Source of the DNA: Hyphomicrobiales bacterium
GTDB taxonomy: Bacteria; Pseudomonadota; Alphaproteobacteria; Rhizobiales; RI-29
Length of the DNA: 64,000 nt
Direction: 5' to 3'
Assembly (NCBI GenBank): GCA_016125495.1
Contig: WGLQ01000014.1
Span: 1 to 64,000, forward strand
The translations under genes were made by a program, and so were the position numbers. This document shows positions 20,157-41,458 of this stretch, piece after piece (position 1 is the first letter of the stretch; every line of letters starts with the position of its first letter). A model generated the notes under the pieces. The model saw only the letters and a program-made list of their open reading frames with translations. It made no database searches and was not told the origin of the DNA.

Positions 20157-20430
20157 CACGGCTCCCGGGCGCGGTGCAGCGTGGAGCAAAGCGGAACGGT
20201 GCACCGCATCCGGGGATCGTGAGGGTGGCGCCCACCGCGTCCGGGGATCGTCATGGCACGGCTCCCGGATGCACTGCGGCGTGGAGCGCAGCGCAATGCC
20301 GCTGTGCTGATCCGGGACCGCCCGCGTTCTGCTCCCTTCATGGCGACCCCGGATCAGCGGTGCACCACTTCGTGCTGCACCGCATCCGGGGATCGTGAGG
20401 GTGGCGCCCAACGCATCCGGGGATCGTCAG
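20157..20430. repeat. Palindromic repeat block 1 (elements C, A, B)
   Basis: This block has three hairpin elements in the order C (20157-20219), A (20257-20320) and B (20344-20395), followed by a solitary CGCATCCGGGGATCGT half-element. Each is a long imperfect inverted repeat. B pairs CCCCGGAT...GCGGTGCA with TGCACCGCATCCGGGG around CACTTCGTG; A pairs TCCCGGAT...GCACTGCGGC with GCCGCTGTGCTGATCCGGGA. The block lies between the convergent mazG and STAND genes and ends two bases before the STAND stop codon. The same elements recur in blocks 2-4. Spacing is irregular and there are no unique spacers of equal length, so it is not CRISPR. Confidence 0.9.
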
Positions 20431-23394: not shown

Positions 23395-23446
23395 CGACCC
23401 CGGATCAGCAGCGCGTCATTTCATGCCGCGCAGCATCCGGGGATCG
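23395..23446. repeat. Palindromic repeat block 2 (one diverged B element)
   Basis: A single B-type hairpin lies upstream of the STAND gene start: CCCCGGATCAGCAGCGCG paired with CGCGCAGCATCCGGGG around TCATTTCATG. The outer arms match other B elements exactly, while the inner stem differs on both sides in a compensatory way. It is between the divergent side of the STAND gene and the 3' end of the cupin gene. Confidence 0.85.
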
Positions 23447-23471
23447 TGAGGGAGGCACCCCCGCCAAGCCC

Positions 23472-33534: not shown

Positions 33535-34302
33535 TCAGCCGGCACACGCAGCTGACACGATACCGAGAAAATCGCTGGCCTTCAGACTGGCGCCCCCGAC
33601 CAATGCCCCGTTCACGTTGGTGATCGAGAGCAATTCGGCGGCGTTGCCGGCTTTCACCGAACCACCATAAAGAAGACGAACGCCGTTGCCGGCCTCACTC
33701 CCATAGCGCGCCACCAGCTTATCACGCAGGAAGCCGTGTGCGCTCGCGACGTCGTCGAGCGAAGGTGTCAGCCCCGTGCCGATCGCCCAGACCGGCTCGT
33801 AGGCAACCACGAGTTGCTCCGACGCCAGGCTGGCCGGGATGGAGGCCGCGAGCTGGCGCTCCAAAACGTCGAGCGTGAGACCGTAGCGCCGCTGACCGAG
33901 GGTCTCGCCGATGCAGACGATCGCCGTCAGCCCAGCCGCTCCGACTGAGGCGGCCTTGCAAGCAACGAGGCCATCGGTTTCGCCGTGGTCACCGCGGCGC
34001 TCGGAATGACCGAGGATGATCGCTGTCGCGCCCGCATCGGCCAGCATCACGGCTGACAGGTCACCGGTGTGGGCGCCCGCATCCGCCGGGTGACAGTCTT
34101 GCGCTCCGATCGCGATGCCACGGTCCGCCATCGCGCCCGCGGCTTCGGCGATGAGCGTGGCGGGAGGGCAGACGAGCACGTCCAGGCGATCGGCTGCCGA
34201 CAGCGCCTCGAGCCCCTGGGCCATGGCCGCCAACTCGCCGAGGGCGGCACGCAGCCCGTTCATTTTCCAGTTGCCTGCGATGAGTGTTCTCGGGGGGGCC
34301 AT
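33535..34302 (-). CDS. tpiA: Triosephosphate isomerase
   Basis: Glycolytic/gluconeogenic enzyme interconverting dihydroxyacetone phosphate and glyceraldehyde 3-phosphate. The 255-residue TIM barrel has Lys in [10 protein letters not shown], the catalytic His of [13 protein letters not shown] and the catalytic Glu region [13 protein letters not shown], and the phosphate-binding [12 protein letters not shown]. The ATG at 34302 was chosen because family proteins begin just before AGNWKMN. It heads a minus-strand group with the unknown exported gene, secG and pyrG, and is divergent from ppiD. Confidence 0.97.
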
Positions 34303-34375
34303 TGCCGCTCGTTCCTGCCAATCGGGAGAGACCATCGCGCTCCGCACCACGTCGCCTCCGCGCGATCGCGTGTTG

Positions 34376-34404
34376 TTGTCGCCAAGTCGCTCCGTTCCTA
34401 TTAT
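34376..34404 (+). promoter_or_regulatory. Candidate sigma-70 promoter of ppiD-trpE
   Basis: TTGTCG at 34376-34381 and TATTAT at 34399-34404 with a 17-bp spacer, about 90 bases before the ppiD ATG in the tpiA/ppiD divergent region. It was identified by eye; no competing sequence of similar quality was seen there. Confidence 0.5.
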
Positions 34405-34493
34405 GACGCACGAAACACCCTTCGCTTGGCAGAGTTCGTCCGGGCGATCAACCGCGGCGGCTTCGTCGTCGCTTCAGCTCTTCATGGTGTCAC

Positions 34494-36410
34494 ATGCTCG
34501 AGACGCTCCGCAAAGGTGCGAAGACCTGGGTTGCGGCGATCTTCATCGGCCTGCTCGTGCTGAGCTTCGCGGTGTGGGGGATCGCCGACATCTTCGGTGG
34601 TTATGGAACGCGAACCGTCGCCACCATCGCGGACAAGGATATCACGGCGCAGGACTTCCAAACCGCCTATCGCAACGAGCTGCAATCCCTCTCGGCCCGC
34701 TTCGGGCGCCCGATCACGCCCGACATGGCGCAACTGTTCGGCGTCGAGCAGCGGGTTCTCGCGCGCATGGTCACGAGCGCCGTCGTCGACACCCACGCCG
34801 AGCGCCTCGGCCTCGGGATCGCGGACCAGACCGTTCTGCGGCTCATCCAGGCCGACCCGTCCTTTCAAAGCAGCGACGGCTCGTTCAACCAGCTGATCTT
34901 TCGCCAGCGCCTCGCCCAGGCCGGGATCAGCGAGGCGGCCTACGTCGAGGATCGCCGCGGTGCCTTGTTGCGCGCCCAAATCGCCGGCGCCTTCACCGAG
35001 GAGCTGACCCCGCCGACCGTCTTCGTCGACGCGAGCAACGACTATCAGAACGAGAAGCGCACCATCGCCCATGTCACGATCGGGCTCGAGAAGGCGGGTG
35101 ATGTCCCGGCTCCCGACGATGCGGCCATCAAGGCCTATTACGACGAAAACCCACAGGAGTTCACGGCACCGGAGTACCGCAAGGTCGAACTGCTCAGCGT
35201 AACGCCGGAAGCACTGGCCGCGACGGTCGAGGTCTCCGACGAGGACGTCGAACAGGACTATGAAGCCCACCGCTCGCGCCACACGACGCCCGCCCGCCGG
35301 CGCATCCAACAGATTTCGTTCCCGGACGAGGCGACCGCCCGCACCGCGCTCGAGGCGATCCGCGGCGGCCAGGATTTCGTCGACGCCGCGAAACTCGCGG
35401 GCCAGACCGCGAGCGATATCGATCTCGGCATCCAGTCGATCGATCAACTCGCCGACCCGGTGGTCGCGCTCGCGGCTTTCGCGCTGGGCGAGGGCGAGGT
35501 GAGCGAGCCGATCAAGGGCACGTTCACGACCGTGCTCTTGCGCGCCAGCGAGATCACGGAGGAGGTCGTGCGCCCGCTCGAAGAGGTCCGCGACGAAATC
35601 CGCACCCAGATCGCACGTGACCGCGCGGTCTCGGCGGTCGCCGACCTCTACGACGCCGTCGAGGACGATCGCGCCGCCTCCATGTCGTTCGCCGAGATCG
35701 CCGCCAAGCACAGCCTCGCCCATCGCGTGATCGAGGCCATCGATGCCTCGGGTAAGGCGACCGACGGCACCGACGTCGGCGAGTTGCCGAGCACGAATGA
35801 ACTGCTGGGGGCGATTTTTTCGACCGAGCCTGGAACCGAGGCCAATGCCCTGGAAACGACGGACCAGGGCTTCGTGTGGCTCGACGTCGTCGCATCGACG
35901 CCAGCGGCGCTGAAGCCGTTCGAATCGGTCGCCGAGGCCGCCCGCACGGCCGCCGAGCGCCAGAAGCGGCTCGATGCGCTTCGCGATCTCTCCGACAGGC
36001 TCCTCACCCAACTCAACGACGGCAAGCCGCTCGGTGACTTCGCCAAGGACCTCGGCCTCGACGTCGTCACCAGTGAACCGCTGACCCGGACCGGCTCCGC
36101 CCCGGGACTGCCGGCCGCCGTCGTCTCGCAGGCCTTCGCCATGGCCGAGGGCCGCCATGGCGTCGCCTGGACCGATGCCCGGGACGGGCGCGTGCTCTTT
36201 CGCCTGGAGGCGGTGACGCCGGCGCCCGCGCCCGCCGATACGGCTCGCACCGCCATCGTCGATGACCTGACGCGCCAGATCGCGGACGACCTCATCGGCC
36301 AGTATACGAACGCCCTGCGCGACCACTATAAGGTGGAGATCAATCAGGCGGCCCTCGATTACGCGGCCGGCCGCACGCAACCGCCGGCCGGCGGCGGCGG
36401 ATTGTTCTGA
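34494..36410 (+). CDS. PpiD/SurA-type membrane-anchored peptidyl-prolyl isomerase
   Basis: A 638-residue periplasmic folding factor. An N-terminal anchor (TWVAAIFIGLLVLSFAVWGI) is followed by a SurA_N-like helical chaperone domain (about 40-175, ITAQDFQTAYRNELQSL) and a parvulin-like region (about 270-375; TPARRRIQQISFPDEATART, GQDFVDAAK). The parvulin signature is degenerate, as in many PpiD proteins, so isomerase activity may be weak. The C-terminal half repeats similar helical features. It likely assists proteins leaving the Sec channel. trpE follows after about 110 bases on the same strand, a common alphaproteobacterial pair. Confidence 0.88.
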   Translation: MLETLRKGAKTWVAAIFIGLLVLSFAVWGIADIFGGYGTRTVATIADKDITAQDFQTAYRNELQSLSARFGRPITPDMAQLFGVEQRVLARMVTSAVVDTHAERLGLGIADQTVLRLIQADPSFQSSDGSFNQLIFRQRLAQAGISEAAYVEDRRGALLRAQIAGAFTEELTPPTVFVDASNDYQNEKRTIAHVTIGLEKAGDVPAPDDAAIKAYYDENPQEFTAPEYRKVELLSVTPEALAATVEVSDEDVEQDYEAHRSRHTTPARRRIQQISFPDEATARTALEAIRGGQDFVDAAKLAGQTASDIDLGIQSIDQLADPVVALAAFALGEGEVSEPIKGTFTTVLLRASEITEEVVRPLEEVRDEIRTQIARDRAVSAVADLYDAVEDDRAASMSFAEIAAKHSLAHRVIEAIDASGKATDGTDVGELPSTNELLGAIFSTEPGTEANALETTDQGFVWLDVVASTPAALKPFESVAEAARTAAERQKRLDALRDLSDRLLTQLNDGKPLGDFAKDLGLDVVTSEPLTRTGSAPGLPAAVVSQAFAMAEGRHGVAWTDARDGRVLFRLEAVTPAPAPADTARTAIVDDLTRQIADDLIGQYTNALRDHYKVEINQAALDYAAGRTQPPAGGGGLF

Positions 36411-36522
36411 GCCGCTGTGCTCGACTTGTCGGGCGGGGTCGGAACCTGACTGGGTTTCGCTCCGCCAGGGGATCCGGTTGACGTCGCGGCCGTGCGGGTC
36501 GCGGCAAGCTCGCGAGGCGGGG

Positions 36523-38160
36523 ATGGCGCGCAGGAAGTCGACGGGGCCGGGATCGATGAAGTCCGGGCCGCTGGAGCACCAGGGATTGCAATTCCGCCCA
36601 GCCCCCGAGGCCTTCGCCGAGGTCGCGGCGGCCGGCCGCCCGCAAGTCGTCTGGACCACCCTCGTTGCCGATCTCGAGACGCCCGTCTCGGCGATGCTGA
36701 AACTCGGGGCCGGGCGCCGCAACGCGTTCCTGCTCGAGAGCGTCGAGGGGGGCGCCGTACGCGGTCGCTATTCGATCATCGGACTCGAGCCGGACCTCAT
36801 CTGGCGCGCGAACGGGGAACGGGCGGAGATCAACCGGCGCCCCGCCGAAGACCCGGGCGATTTTCAGCCGCTCGAGGAGCCGACGCTCGACGCCCTGCGC
36901 AGCCTTCTGGAAAGTTCACGCATCGAACTGCCGGAGGCTTTGCCGCCGATGGCCGCAGGCGTCTTCGGCTTCATGAGCTACGACACCGTGCGCCAGGTCG
37001 AACGCCTGCCGGGAGCCGGCCGCGACGCGCTCGGCGTGCCGGACGCCATTCTCATCCGTCCGACGGTGATGGTGATCTTCGATGCCGTCAAGGACGAGAT
37101 CACGATCGTCACCCCCGTCTATCCGACACCCGGCGGGGCGCCGAGCAGCCAGTCTGCCGGCCGCCGCAAGACCAAGGCGCCAGGCGACCAGCAAACGACC
37201 TATCTCGAAGCCTGCGAACGTCTCGCCCGCGTCGTTGCGCGTCTCGAATCCCCGCTCGACATGCGGCGCGACGTCACCGAGGTCGAGCCCGGCGAAGCGC
37301 TGCCCGCCGCGCGCTCCAACACGCCGCGCAAGGACTACCTCGCGATGGTGCGCAAGGCCAAGGAGTACATCGCGGCCGGCGACATCTTCCAGGTCGTCCT
37401 CAGCCAGCGGTTTTCCGTCCCCTTCACGCTCGCACCCTTCTCGCTCTACCGGGCCCTCAGGCGCACCAACCCCTCGCCCTTTCTTTTCTTCCTCGACTTC
37501 GGCGAGTTCTCCATCGTCGGCTCGAGCCCGGAAATTCTCGTTCGCGTGCGCGATGGCGAGGTCACCATTCGCCCGATCGCCGACACGCGGCCGCGTGGCG
37601 CGACACCCGCCGAGGACCGGGCCAATGCCGCCGATCTCCTCGCGGATGAAAAGGAGCGCGCCGAGCACCTGATGCTGGTCGACCTCGGGCGCAACGACGT
37701 CGGGCGGGTCTCGGAGATCGGCACGGTGACGCTGACGGACAGCTTCTTTCTCGAATACTACAGCCAGGTCATGCACATCGTCTCGAACGTCACGGGCCGG
37801 CTACGCGCCGACCGGGACGCGATCGACGCCTTGATGGCGGGCTTTCCGGCGGGCACCGTCTCGGGCGCGCCGAAGGTGCGCGCGATGCAGATCATCGACG
37901 AACTCGAGCGCGACAAGCGCGGGCCCTATGCCGGGTGCGTCGGATATTTTTCCGCGAACGGGCAGATGGACACCTGTATCGTGCTGCGCACGGCGCTCGT
38001 CAAGGATGGCGTCATGCACGTCCAGGCGGGCGCCGGCATCGTCGCCGATTCCATCCCCGAGAGCGAGCAGGCCGAGTGCGAGAACAAGGCCAAGGCGCTC
38101 TTCAAGGCGGCCGAGGAGGCCGTGCGCTTCGCGAGCCGCGGTCGGGGCAACCAGAGCTGA
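36523..38160 (+). CDS. trpE: Anthranilate synthase component I
   Basis: First step of tryptophan synthesis: chorismate plus ammonia to anthranilate. The N-terminal half has the feedback site region (LLESVEGGAVRGRYSIIGLE) and the C-terminal chorismate-binding domain has GDIFQVVLSQRFSVPF, SPEILVRVRDGEVTIRPIA, DLGRNDVGRVSE, FPAGTVSGAPKVRAMQIIDE and GCVGYFSANG. Length is about 545 from the ATG at 36523; an ATG at 36556 is equally plausible. No glutaminase subunit (trpG) is fused or adjacent: right after the stop comes repeat block 3, whereas related genomes commonly continue with trpG-trpD-trpC. Confidence 0.95.
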   Translation: MARRKSTGPGSMKSGPLEHQGLQFRPAPEAFAEVAAAGRPQVVWTTLVADLETPVSAMLKLGAGRRNAFLLESVEGGAVRGRYSIIGLEPDLIWRANGERAEINRRPAEDPGDFQPLEEPTLDALRSLLESSRIELPEALPPMAAGVFGFMSYDTVRQVERLPGAGRDALGVPDAILIRPTVMVIFDAVKDEITIVTPVYPTPGGAPSSQSAGRRKTKAPGDQQTTYLEACERLARVVARLESPLDMRRDVTEVEPGEALPAARSNTPRKDYLAMVRKAKEYIAAGDIFQVVLSQRFSVPFTLAPFSLYRALRRTNPSPFLFFLDFGEFSIVGSSPEILVRVRDGEVTIRPIADTRPRGATPAEDRANAADLLADEKERAEHLMLVDLGRNDVGRVSEIGTVTLTDSFFLEYYSQVMHIVSNVTGRLRADRDAIDALMAGFPAGTVSGAPKVRAMQIIDELERDKRGPYAGCVGYFSANGQMDTCIVLRTALVKDGVMHVQAGAGIVADSIPESEQAECENKAKALFKAAEEAVRFASRGRGNQS

Positions 38161-38207: not shown

Positions 38208-38445
38208 CACGGTTCCCGGGCGCGGTGCAGCGTGGAGCAAAGCGGAACGGTGCGCCGCAGACCCGGGACCGCCCTTGTCCTGCGCCCTTCATAGCGACCC
38301 CGGACCAGCAGTGCGTCATTGCATGCCGCACTGCATCCGGGGATCGTGAGGGGGGCGCACCGCATCCGGGGCTCGTCATCGCACGGTTCCCGGATGCACT
38401 GCGGCGTGGAGCGCAGCGCAATGCCGCTGTGCTGATCCGGGACCG
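38208..38445. repeat. Palindromic repeat block 3 (elements C, B, A)
   Basis: This block contains C (38208-38271), B (38295-38346), a half-element CGCATCCGGGGCTCGTCA and A (38382-38445). C pairs TCCCGGGCGCGGTGCA with TGCGCCGCAGACCCGGGA; the A sequence is nearly identical to copies in blocks 1 and 4. The block starts 47 bases after the trpE stop and ends 13 bases before the GIY-YIG stop codon, so it sits between two converging 3' ends. Confidence 0.9.
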
Positions 38446-38458
38446 CCCTCGTTCGGCC

Positions 38459-38758
38459 CTAACCTGCAATTGCGTCGAACAGGTCGCGCCAATCCGGATT
38501 GCTCTCTTCCACGAGTGCAACCTTCCAAGCGCGCCGCCATCGCTTGAGCGCATACTCGCGCCGGGCGGCACTCTCGGTACTCTCGTGGCGCTCGAAATAG
38601 ACCAACCGATCGACCCCGAACTTGCGGGTAAACGATGCCACTACCCCTGCTCGATGCTGCCAGATGCGCTGGGCGAGCGCACTCGTCATGCCGACATAGA
38701 GGACACCGCGCGGCCGGTTGGCGAGAATATAAACCCAGAACTCGCTCGACGTGTTCAT
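38459..38758 (-). CDS. GIY-YIG nuclease-domain protein within the repeat array
   Basis: A single-domain GIY-YIG protein of 99 residues (UPF0213/YhbQ-like). Catalytic elements: VYI (9-11) and YVG (21-23) forming the GIY-YIG motif, Arg31 in AQRIWQHR, the metal-binding Glu68 in ARREYALKRW and Asn87 in EESNPDW. No DNA-binding domain is attached. The ATG at 38758 follows AAGGGAG. The gene lies in the spacer between a repeat A element and a repeat B element. The array on either side keeps the same A-spacer-B order as copies that lack the gene. Biochemical function in this family is poorly known; a role in moving or processing the repeats is my inference. Confidence 0.88.
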   Translation of the reverse strand: MNTSSEFWVYILANRPRGVLYVGMTSALAQRIWQHRAGVVASFTRKFGVDRLVYFERHESTESAARREYALKRWRRAWKVALVEESNPDWRDLFDAIAG

Positions 38759-38778
38759 GGTCAATACTCCCTTGCCAG

Positions 38779-39223
38779 CGACCCCGGACCAGCGGTGCAC
38801 CACTTCGTGCCGAACCGCATCCGGGGATCGTCATCGCACGGTTCCCGGATGCACTGCGGCGTGGAGCGCAGCGCAATGCCGCTGTGCTGATCCGGGACCG
38901 CCCTCGTTCTGCTCTCCTAATCGCGACCCGGGACCGGCCTCGTCCTGCTCCCTTCATGGCGACCCCGGATCAGCGGTGCACCACTCGCGTGCTGCACCGC
39001 ATCCGGGGATCGTGAGGGGGGCGCACCGCATCCGGGGATCGTCATCGCACGGTTCCCGGATGCACTGCGGCGTGGAGCGCAGCGCAATGCCGCTGTGCTG
39101 ATCCGGGACCGCCCTCATTCTGCTCTCCTCATGGCGACCCCGGACCGCCCACGTTCTGCTCCCTTCATGGCGACCCCGGATCAGCGGTGCACCACTCGCG
39201 TGCTGCACCGCATCCGGGGATCG
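38779..39223. repeat. Palindromic repeat block 4 (B, A, B, A, partial, B)
   Basis: This is the densest array: B (38779-38830), A (38837-38900), a partial GCGACCCGGGACCGG element, B (38960-39012), a half-element, A (39048-39111), a partial CGACCCCGGACCGCCC and B (39171-39223). The two A copies here are near-identical to each other and to block 3. The last two B copies have the loop CACTCGCGTG instead of CACTTCGTG, which still pairs. It lies between the GIY-YIG start and the stop codon of the second STAND gene, ending ten bases before that stop. Confidence 0.92.
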
Positions 39224-39232
39224 TGGATGGCC

Positions 39233-41458
39233 TCACCCCGCCGGCGGGCCATCGTCGCGATCCGTGGCGGCGGGCGCGGCCATCTTGGCGAGGAGGAGCG
39301 CGTAGTTGCGCGAGAAGGTCCGCGTGTTCGGATGATCCTCGCCGAGGCGCGCGCGGGCAATCTCCAGCGCCCGCCGCATCGGCTCCTCGGCCTCGTCGAG
39401 GCGGCCCGTCGCCTTGAGCAACTGCGCGAGGTTGTTGAGATCCCTCGTCACGACGGGATGATCTGGCCCATAGGCCTTCTCGTCGATCGCCAGCGCCCGC
39501 CGCATCAGCGGCTCGGCCTCGTCGAGACGGCCCGTCGCCTGGAGCAACTGCGCAAGGTTATTTAGTGCCGTGGCCACGTTCGTATGCTCGCGTCCGAGCC
39601 GGGCTTCCACGATACCGACCGCCCGACGCATCAGCGGCTCGGCCCCCTCGAGACGTCCAGTCGCTTGGAGCAACGACGCGAGGTTATTGAGGCGGATCGC
39701 CACAGTGGGGTGGTCCGGCCCGAAGGCCTTCTCGTCGATCTTCTGCGCCCGCCACATCAGCGGCTCGGCCTCGGTGAAGCGACCCGTCGCCTGGAGCAAA
39801 CTCGCAAGGTTATTGAGGGCGATCGCGATCGTTGGATGTTCAGAGCCGGATGTGGCCTCGAAAATTGCCAGTGCCCGGTGATAGAGAGGCTCGGCGGTGG
39901 CGTAGGCGGCGCGGCTGAAGAAATAGAGTGCTAGTTGACTGAGAAGTACACCGGCGCTTCTAGCTGAGGCTCCGAGCGACTCGGGATTTGCCCCCGAAAG
40001 ACGCCAGAGGTGGCCGGTGACGGCCTCGGCATGGGGCGCGAGACGGGCGCAAGCGGGCCAATTGCGAATGTGGTCTGCGCGCCGCTCCCCGCCTGGAAAT
40101 GCAGCCGTGACCAGCTCAAGTGCCGCACCAACCGCCTCGCGCGCCGAGTCCCCATTCGGCAGCCGCTCCAATCGCGCCCGAGCCATGGCCTGGACGACGA
40201 GGTTGACGGAAAGGCCGGACGTACCGTCGGCGAGCTTGTCGCGGCGGATGAGGGCGACGCGGGCGAGCGCGTCGAGAGCCGCCTCGAGATCGAGTTCCTT
40301 GGCCTTCTCCTCGGGAAAGAGGTCGAGCGGAATATCCTCCGGCGCCAGATAGGCCAAGAGGCCCATCACCGCACCCGCCATCGGCGCTGCTGCAGTCACG
40401 GCATCGAGCGCGAGACCGAAGGTGGCGGCAACGCTCCGCGGATAGTCCGTGCCCTCCGGCACGTCGGCGAGTTGCGCCTCCCATTCCCTCTCGTAGGCCG
40501 CAAACGACAGCCCCCGCGCCTTGCAGGTCGCGGCCGCATGGTCGAGGGCGAGGGGGAGATAGCCGAGCGCCTTTGCGAGGGCGGCGGCACCGTCATGATC
40601 GCTCCGCTTCGTCTCGGCAAGGAGGAAGTCCACGGCCGCCTCGGGCGCGAGCACGTCGATCTCGCGCGCCGCAAAGCGCCCCGGCCACGTGGTGTGGCGC
40701 GTGGAGGCGATGACGTGCGCGCCGGAGGCGGGCATCAGGTCCTGGAGCTTGGTGGCCGGCTGGCCCTCGGCGGGGGGCGGGTACTCGGGCCCCGGCACGT
40801 TGTCGTAGACGAGGAGGCCGGGGCGCGGATCGGATTTGTCGCCCGCCTCGATGAGTGCGAGGGTTAAGCGGGCGGCTTCGGGGAGACTTTGGGCAGCGAT
40901 CTCCGCGACGCGCGGATCGAGCCGGCCGCCGAGGTCGGCGAGGCCCTGCATGACGCCATCCTCCGTTTCGGCAGCGAGCCACCAGGCAAAGCGATAGCGG
41001 TTCGCGGTGGCGGCGCGGTGGGCGTATTCGCGCGCGAGGGTCGATTTGCCGACGCCGCCGAGCCCGGCGATGGTGTGGCGCTTGGCGATGGTGGCGGTGC
41101 CCCCGCCGCCCCAAAGACTGGCCTCGATGGCTACGAGGTCGGCCGCGCGGCCGGCGAAGTTGGGGGTCGCAAAGATCTCGTCATGGAAGAACCCGCCCGC
41201 CGGGAGTGGGTGCTCGTTGGGGGCGGCGATGGCCTCGTAGTAATTTGCAACGTGTACGAATTGATCCGCGACGCTTGCCTCGGAAATCCAGTTTGCGGCG
41301 CCATGGGCCTCCTGGACCCCAACCTTTTCTGACCCCCGAGCGGAATTACCTCCGCGAAGGATGACAAATGCTCTGACCATTGCGTCAAAACATTCCGACA
41401 GGACGGAACCAGCCAGAGCAATCCATAAAATGGCGAGCGTTTCCCAGAAGAGACTCAC
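39233..41458 (-). CDS. Membrane-associated NB-ARC (STAND) NTPase with TPR repeats
   Basis: A 741-residue protein starting at GTG 41458. A hydrophobic segment at residues 4-20 (FWETLAILWIALAGSVL) suggests a membrane anchor. The NB-ARC core has Walker A IAGLGGVGKST (about 130-140), Walker B GLLVYDNV (about 214-221), a sensor-like VIASTRHTTW and the GLPL-type motif LGYLPLALDHAA. The C-terminal third holds about four 42-residue tetratricopeptide repeats of kinesin-light-chain type (LNNLASLLQATGRFTEAEPL). Such proteins oligomerise on sensing a trigger; many act in antiviral or death signalling. No effector domain is evident. Its GTG overlaps the TGA of the upstream membrane protein (GTGA), so the two are translationally coupled. 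Its 3' end abuts repeat block 4. Confidence 0.85.
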   Translation of the reverse strand: MSLFWETLAILWIALAGSVLSECFDAMVRAFVILRGGNSARGSEKVGVQEAHGAANWISEASVADQFVHVANYYEAIAAPNEHPLPAGGFFHDEIFATPNFAGRAADLVAIEASLWGGGGTATIAKRHTIAGLGGVGKSTLAREYAHRAATANRYRFAWWLAAETEDGVMQGLADLGGRLDPRVAEIAAQSLPEAARLTLALIEAGDKSDPRPGLLVYDNVPGPEYPPPAEGQPATKLQDLMPASGAHVIASTRHTTWPGRFAAREIDVLAPEAAVDFLLAETKRSDHDGAAALAKALGYLPLALDHAAATCKARGLSFAAYEREWEAQLADVPEGTDYPRSVAATFGLALDAVTAAAPMAGAVMGLLAYLAPEDIPLDLFPEEKAKELDLEAALDALARVALIRRDKLADGTSGLSVNLVVQAMARARLERLPNGDSAREAVGAALELVTAAFPGGERRADHIRNWPACARLAPHAEAVTGHLWRLSGANPESLGASARSAGVLLSQLALYFFSRAAYATAEPLYHRALAIFEATSGSEHPTIAIALNNLASLLQATGRFTEAEPLMWRAQKIDEKAFGPDHPTVAIRLNNLASLLQATGRLEGAEPLMRRAVGIVEARLGREHTNVATALNNLAQLLQATGRLDEAEPLMRRALAIDEKAYGPDHPVVTRDLNNLAQLLKATGRLDEAEEPMRRALEIARARLGEDHPNTRTFSRNYALLLAKMAAPAATDRDDGPPAG

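Follow-up and report, generated by a model that had tools for sequence, protein, structure and literature searches.

A GIY-YIG nuclease gene within the spacer of a REP-like dimer, and the case for a small mobile unit

Ssn, reportedly described in 2025 in Nat Commun, is said to be a GIY-YIG family of site-specific single-strand nucleases with thousands of homologues that have sequences of their own; its Neisseria enzyme reportedly acts on a repeated sequence, the NTS repeats, and modulates transformation. In RAYT/REPIN systems (REPtrons), an HUH tyrosine transposase lies between REPs that carry a GTAG tag. The CGTC REPs, as published, have a CGTC tag, a stem starting with AT and a CCA tail, and form head-to-head dimers (PMC3733652). 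They were reported to have neither a dedicated transposase nor a link to tyrosine transposases (Di Nocera 2013, PMC3733652); the same paper does not mention GIY-YIG genes, and it identifies the CGTC-1 repeats of Neisseria with dRS3 (PMC3733652). Our literature search found nothing on point that links GIY-YIG proteins to REP, CGTC, dRS3 or REPIN sequences.

The window that we analysed, the whole 64,000-nucleotide stretch of contig WGLQ01000014.1 from a Hyphomicrobiales bacterium, contains a GIY-YIG nuclease gene of 99 aa at 38459-38758 on the minus strand, identified by a Pfam match (GIY-YIG, PF01541, E=1.1e-14), an AlphaFold model (pLDDT 91.5) and conserved catalytic residues. The protein qualifies for the GIY-YIG superfamily, which is defined by a catalytic domain whose active site has Tyr, Arg and Glu: Y10, Y21, G23, R31, H35, E68 and N87 are all present, and Y10, Y21, G23, R31, E68 and N87 are invariant across homologues. 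Its best PDB matches by fold are 1zg2 (UPF0213) and Slx1. While it is like the GIY-YIG domains of UPF0213, Slx1 and UvrC in fold, it differs from these proteins in lacking extra domains and in being paired with a repeat family. A genome search found one copy of the family gene. An NCBIfam search with the protein returned no family, and Rfam gave chance microRNA matches only, below gathering scores. PADLOC found nothing, so there is no sign of a known defence system. We also rejected a phage origin of the gene, for which the sole support was one weak 39% phage homologue.

The gene lies within an array of hairpin elements, whose coordinates we give on the plus strand. The A and B elements fold into hairpins better than shuffled sequences do (z −3.2 to −5.3); the hairpins are about 55–65 nt, with long and interrupted stems. 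Read in one orientation, both have the order CACG-stem-loop-stem-CGCC, with CACG on the outer side and CGCC on the side of the spacer. Because CACG faces outward and CGCC inward in both elements, A-spacer-B is a head-to-head dimer. An A element flanks the gene on its 3' side (38382-38446, tag-equivalent CACG outward) and an inverted B element on its 5' side (38778-38831, tag-equivalent outward), and the 331 nt between A and B hold the whole gene along with both halves of the ordinary spacer, which has the consensus CCTCGTTC-TG-CTCCCTTCATG. The left half, CCTCGTTC, is at 38447-38454, 4 nt from the end of the gene's stop codon. The right half, CTCCCTT at 38767-38773, is on the minus strand the gene's Shine-Dalgarno sequence, AAGGGAG, located 8 bases upstream of the ATG.

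Three gene-less dimers accompany this gene-bearing one. The first (38208-38348) consists of A at 38208-38272, a 21-nt spacer at 38273-38293 and B at 38294-38348. The other two have nested 57-nt spacers: 38837-39014 (A 38837-38901, spacer 38902-38958, B 38959-39014) and 39048-39225 (A 39048-39112, spacer 39113-39169, B 39170-39225). Elsewhere in the window are a gene-less dimer of the same family with the 21-nt spacer CCGCGTTCTGCTCCCTTCATG (20234-20396) and a lone B element (23395-23447). A search of the genome gave 38 matches to the A/B repeat over 10 contigs; with so many matches and one nuclease gene, the placement of the gene inside a repeat is not chance. Seventeen A-spacer-B dimers were readable, 14 of them simple, two nested and one gene-bearing. 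The simple spacers measure 21 nt in 13 cases and 20 nt in one, and 10 of these 14 still carry the gene's Shine-Dalgarno. Since the spacer halves and the Shine-Dalgarno are retained, the gene-less dimer looks like what is left of the unit once the reading frame is removed, although the direction from gene-bearing to gene-less is inferred. An earlier note on this DNA, made from the sequence alone, had described intact nuclease motifs, a complete gene with its ribosome site filling the A-B spacer, and remnants of the ordinary spacer at the gene's ends; all of these hold, both remnants matching the spacer consensus. Its figure of about 24–60 bases for an ordinary spacer does not, as the length is a near-constant 21 nt and the longer spacers are nested partial dimers.

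The surroundings include ordinary genes at 33535-38160, namely frames that resemble triosephosphate isomerase and PpiD, recognised by eye, and one that Pfam identifies as anthranilate synthase component I. Directly beside the array, on the minus strand (39233-41458), is a 741-aa protein. Its C terminus has tetratricopeptide repeats in the form of three similar units of 42 aa (direct repeats of 126 nt in the DNA), and inspection by eye suggests a P-loop motif, GLGGVGKST, in the N-terminal half. Another type of palindromic repeat, CACGCGTCCCGGAGCAGGCGGGCAAAGCCCGCCGCACATCCGGGACCCAGGAG, adjoins A/B arrays (L006, L010, L011; window-genome contigs C15, C25, C4).

Among known systems, the window protein is closest to Ssn, which we take to be its protein family. 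The N. gonorrhoeae homologue, presumably Ssn itself, is 52% identical to it over 90% of the query, which satisfies the homology criterion, and sits among CGTCATTCCCGC...GCGGGAAT / CGTCATTCCCGC...GCGGGAATGACG repeats. The cognate-repeat criterion is satisfied in the window genome by the 38 repeat matches and the gene's position inside a repeat. In both systems the GIY-YIG protein is single-domain and about 100 aa long, and each nuclease lineage has a repeated sequence proper to it. Judged on sequence similarity, membership of the window protein is very likely. What sets the locus apart from Ssn is the gene embedded in a dimer spacer, gene-less dimers resembling deletion derivatives, dispersed units and the CACG tag. 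The N. gonorrhoeae record NZ_CP119142.1, 2.17 Mb long and evidently a chromosome, is held in a plasmid collection with 17 annotated features, and the nuclease gene is not among them.

The likeness to RAYT/REPIN systems lies in the short palindromes, the head-to-head dimers with conserved spacers, the usual one gene per repeat type and the gene's own flanking repeats. However, the gene between the REPs at the window locus encodes a GIY-YIG protein and not an HUH tyrosine transposase, and the tag position reads CACG, so that GTC/CACG stands in place of GTAG. We file the protein with the GIY-YIG/Ssn-like family and regard the system as RAYT/REPIN-like in its working, not as a member.

To see how general the arrangement is, we used 80 homologue loci from one scan of bacterial and archaeal genomes, mainly in Alphaproteobacteria but also in Luteibacter, Lysobacter, and deltaproteobacterial, Zixibacteriota and Bacteroidota bins. 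The two 300-bp flanks were compared in the 75 loci with enough flank, a local score of at least 20 counting as a common repeat. Such a repeat was common to both flanks in 63 of 75 homologue loci, compared to 6 of 460 other genes on the same contigs (any nearby non-overlapping ORFs of at least 100 codons, unmatched for size or accessory status), and in 116 of 146 loci of a larger set to which order-survey homologues and paralogues had been added. Association with repeats is near-universal for this GIY-YIG family and rare for neighbouring genes. The layout varies, since among 54 cases scored for tag orientation the gene was inside an outward-tagged dimer in 27 and between inward-facing tags, that is, between dimers and not within one, in 14. 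At one Zixibacteriota locus (L053), two nuclease genes that are 98.9% identical lie in tandem with palindromes between them. In three species of one genus (L141, L144, L154), the nuclease unit is just upstream of a frame starting MNRFAFLLDRL, apparently at the same locus; we presume this frame to be an ATP-dependent DNA ligase.

We also surveyed 297 genomes of the order for one REP type, counting homologues at a threshold of 1e-10 against the window protein, at which diverged relatives may go undetected. The REP type was present in 93 of 159 genomes with a homologue versus 34 of 138 without (odds ratio 4.3, with no correction for phylogeny). REP-rich genomes without a homologue at this threshold do exist (G187, G243 and G180), and in one genus two genomes have 62–65 dimer copies without a close orthologue and one has 16 copies without the nuclease. 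The earlier note would have been refuted by orthologues usually lying away from repeats, which is not what the flanks show. Its expectation that repeats and nuclease occur together stands in part: REPs are commoner where the nuclease is found, yet some genomes are rich in REPs with no homologue at threshold.

A search of all 64 trinucleotides beside hairpins next to homologues gave GTC as the most enriched tag, present on both sides in 53 of 148 homologue loci vs 18 of 469 controls (p=4e-22); TGG ranked second and TCA third. The GTC-tagged stems mostly begin with AT. The search recovers the published definition of CGTC REPs: like that superfamily, the repeats flanking homologues have a GTC tag, stems that begin with AT, a tail signal resembling CCA and a head-to-head dimer arrangement. 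A difference is that the paper reports no dedicated transposase, while the repeats analysed here consistently have a nuclease gene attached. The window repeats themselves pass the dimer test: 13 of the 14 simple dimers have a spacer of 21 nt. They fail the tag test, as the elements carry CACG, with no GTC-tagged hairpin among them, and they fail the stem test (8–9 bp stem, 4–5 nt loop), their stems being longer and interrupted. Because these two tests were not met, we do not file them as canonical CGTC REPs; they are REP-like.

The more identical two nucleases are, the more alike their flank repeats tend to be: over 150 loci, the Mantel rho below 70% identity is 0.126, a value that none of 500 permutations reached. 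Paralogues within one genome have common flank repeats in 9 of 11 pairs more than 70% identical and in 1 of 30 pairs less than 60% identical, and closest homologues in other genomes often have them at 64–67% identity, some across families. Several distinct nuclease/repeat pairs can coexist in one genome; G234 has three paralogues with three different repeats, each of which also lies next to its matching homologue in another species. From the within-genome paralogues and G234, it follows that the repeat belongs to the nuclease lineage and not to the host.

Copies of the unit and of its dimers are dispersed. A dimer taken from one nuclease locus is present 48 times in its own genome and 9 to 81 times in 11 of the 12 other genomes of the genus; the remaining genome lacks the dimer and has no homologue. 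In one genome (G130) the whole unit occurs a second time, at a dispersed site; this copy is 92% identical within the unit but has unrelated surroundings, and it carries a 35-bp deletion and a stop codon. Between G130 and its sister species G017, of one genus, the 437-bp unit of G130 matches at 86% and its surroundings do not: the unit is next to a thiolase-like gene in one and next to polA in the other (gene names by eye), and the polA site of G130 has neither unit nor REP. Because 12-kb homologue loci yielded no junction-spanning gene-less copies, we turned to whole-genome searches. Internally deleted units that keep both REPs but have lost part of the nuclease frame were found on S. meliloti pSymB (211 bp missing) and in G017. 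By eye only, S. medicae has another internally deleted unit, and Shinella perhaps one more in the form of a gene-less dimer. Such forms would be the expected intermediates if dimers derive from units. No target-site duplication was found at the polA, recR and thiolase sites of the two sister species, whose flanks are too diverged to define junctions. At recR, one of the three sites compared, the sister species keeps an apparent remnant of both unit ends. For that reason, we do not count this site as proof of insertion, and conclude that units are lost as well as gained.

The architecture, the pairing of nuclease lineage with repeat, and the dispersed, displaced and internally deleted copies are observations, and given the pairing and these copies we suggest that the nuclease and its repeat work like a RAYT/REPIN pair with a different nuclease. 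This supports the analogy drawn in the earlier note, in which a GIY-YIG enzyme takes the place of a RAYT, although neither cleavage nor active spreading has been shown. Our proposal is that the REP-nuclease-REP stretch would be a minimal mobile unit of about 450 bp, from which gene-less dimers would derive by internal deletion, much like MITEs or REPINs. The small GIY-YIG protein would recognise the hairpin of its own type of repeat, most likely while the DNA is single-stranded, and nick it near the outer tag; the nick would free the unit or a gene-less dimer, or prime copying into new sites. Single-strand hairpin cutting is inferred here from homology and from the Ssn family, and the role of the nuclease in causing repeat spread is likewise an inference. 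Taken as a whole, from unit to deletion-derived dimers to nicking by the cognate nuclease, we consider this explanation moderately probable. Several points count against it: there are no cleavage data and no target-site duplication, RecA recombination could also move arrays, some REP-rich genomes have no detected homologue and, in one genus, some dimer-rich genomes no close orthologue, 14 of 54 genes lie between inward tags, and what seem to be end remnants persist at one of the three sites examined.

A resident site-specific single-strand nuclease could instead act on incoming or replicating ssDNA, for example by tuning natural transformation, with the repeats kept as recognition sites and spread by general recombination. 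The Neisseria Ssn family fits, as it reportedly cuts ssDNA at a repeated sequence and modulates transformation; the Neisseria homologue (52% identical) does lie among dRS3-like repeats, and in one genus the gene seems fixed at one locus, with the same neighbour sequence in three species. Still, we think this unlikely, though worth keeping in mind, because the dispersed and displaced units with their internal-deletion derivatives resemble a mobile element, and several nuclease/repeat pairs occur together in one genome.

It is harder to defend a homing-like selfish gene, whose nuclease cuts REP sites and is inserted into existing dimers by repair from a gene-bearing copy, such that the repeats are target and not product. 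GIY-YIG is a homing-endonuclease fold, and the gene sits precisely within a standard dimer's spacer, inside a repeat that may be its own site. But just 1 of 17 dimers in the window genome holds the gene, most gene-less spacers retain its Shine-Dalgarno, the internally deleted copies point from gene-bearing to gene-less, and one compared site without the unit (polA in G130) is also without a REP; we find this account improbable. Passive hitchhiking, with the gene caught in insertion-tolerant REP arrays that another transposase (RAYT or IS) moves, draws on REPs being known IS targets (PMC1525189), and merits hardly any credence given the near-universal repeat association of the family, rare for neighbouring genes, a repeat sequence that tracks nuclease lineage, and CGTC repeats reported not to flank tyrosine transposases (PMC3733652).

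Returning to the mobile-unit explanation, the system is not categorically new; as far as we found, the reading in terms of REP mobility is the new part. We did not find described the gene as a filled dimer spacer, the decay series, the relocation of the unit or an answer to the missing CGTC transposase. It is tempting to go further and speculate that the CGTC-type REP superfamily is mobilised by single-domain GIY-YIG nucleases, with an autonomous element of ~450 bp that encodes one ~100-aa protein and gene-less dimers as its MITEs, a second and independent counterpart of the RAYTs for GTAG REPs; on this wider claim we are evenly divided. Because the enzyme and its own hairpins recur, duplicate, move and decay together across many bacteria, the nuclease probably drives the spread of a large class of palindromic repeats in bacteria. 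CGTC-type REPs are widespread, and with a cognate nuclease for every repeat type, how they arose and spread becomes open to test. The many nuclease/repeat pairs also offer a natural collection from which to draw candidates for hairpin nucleases with sequence specificity, and a one-gene GIY-YIG unit would, if true, rank among the smallest autonomous mobile elements.
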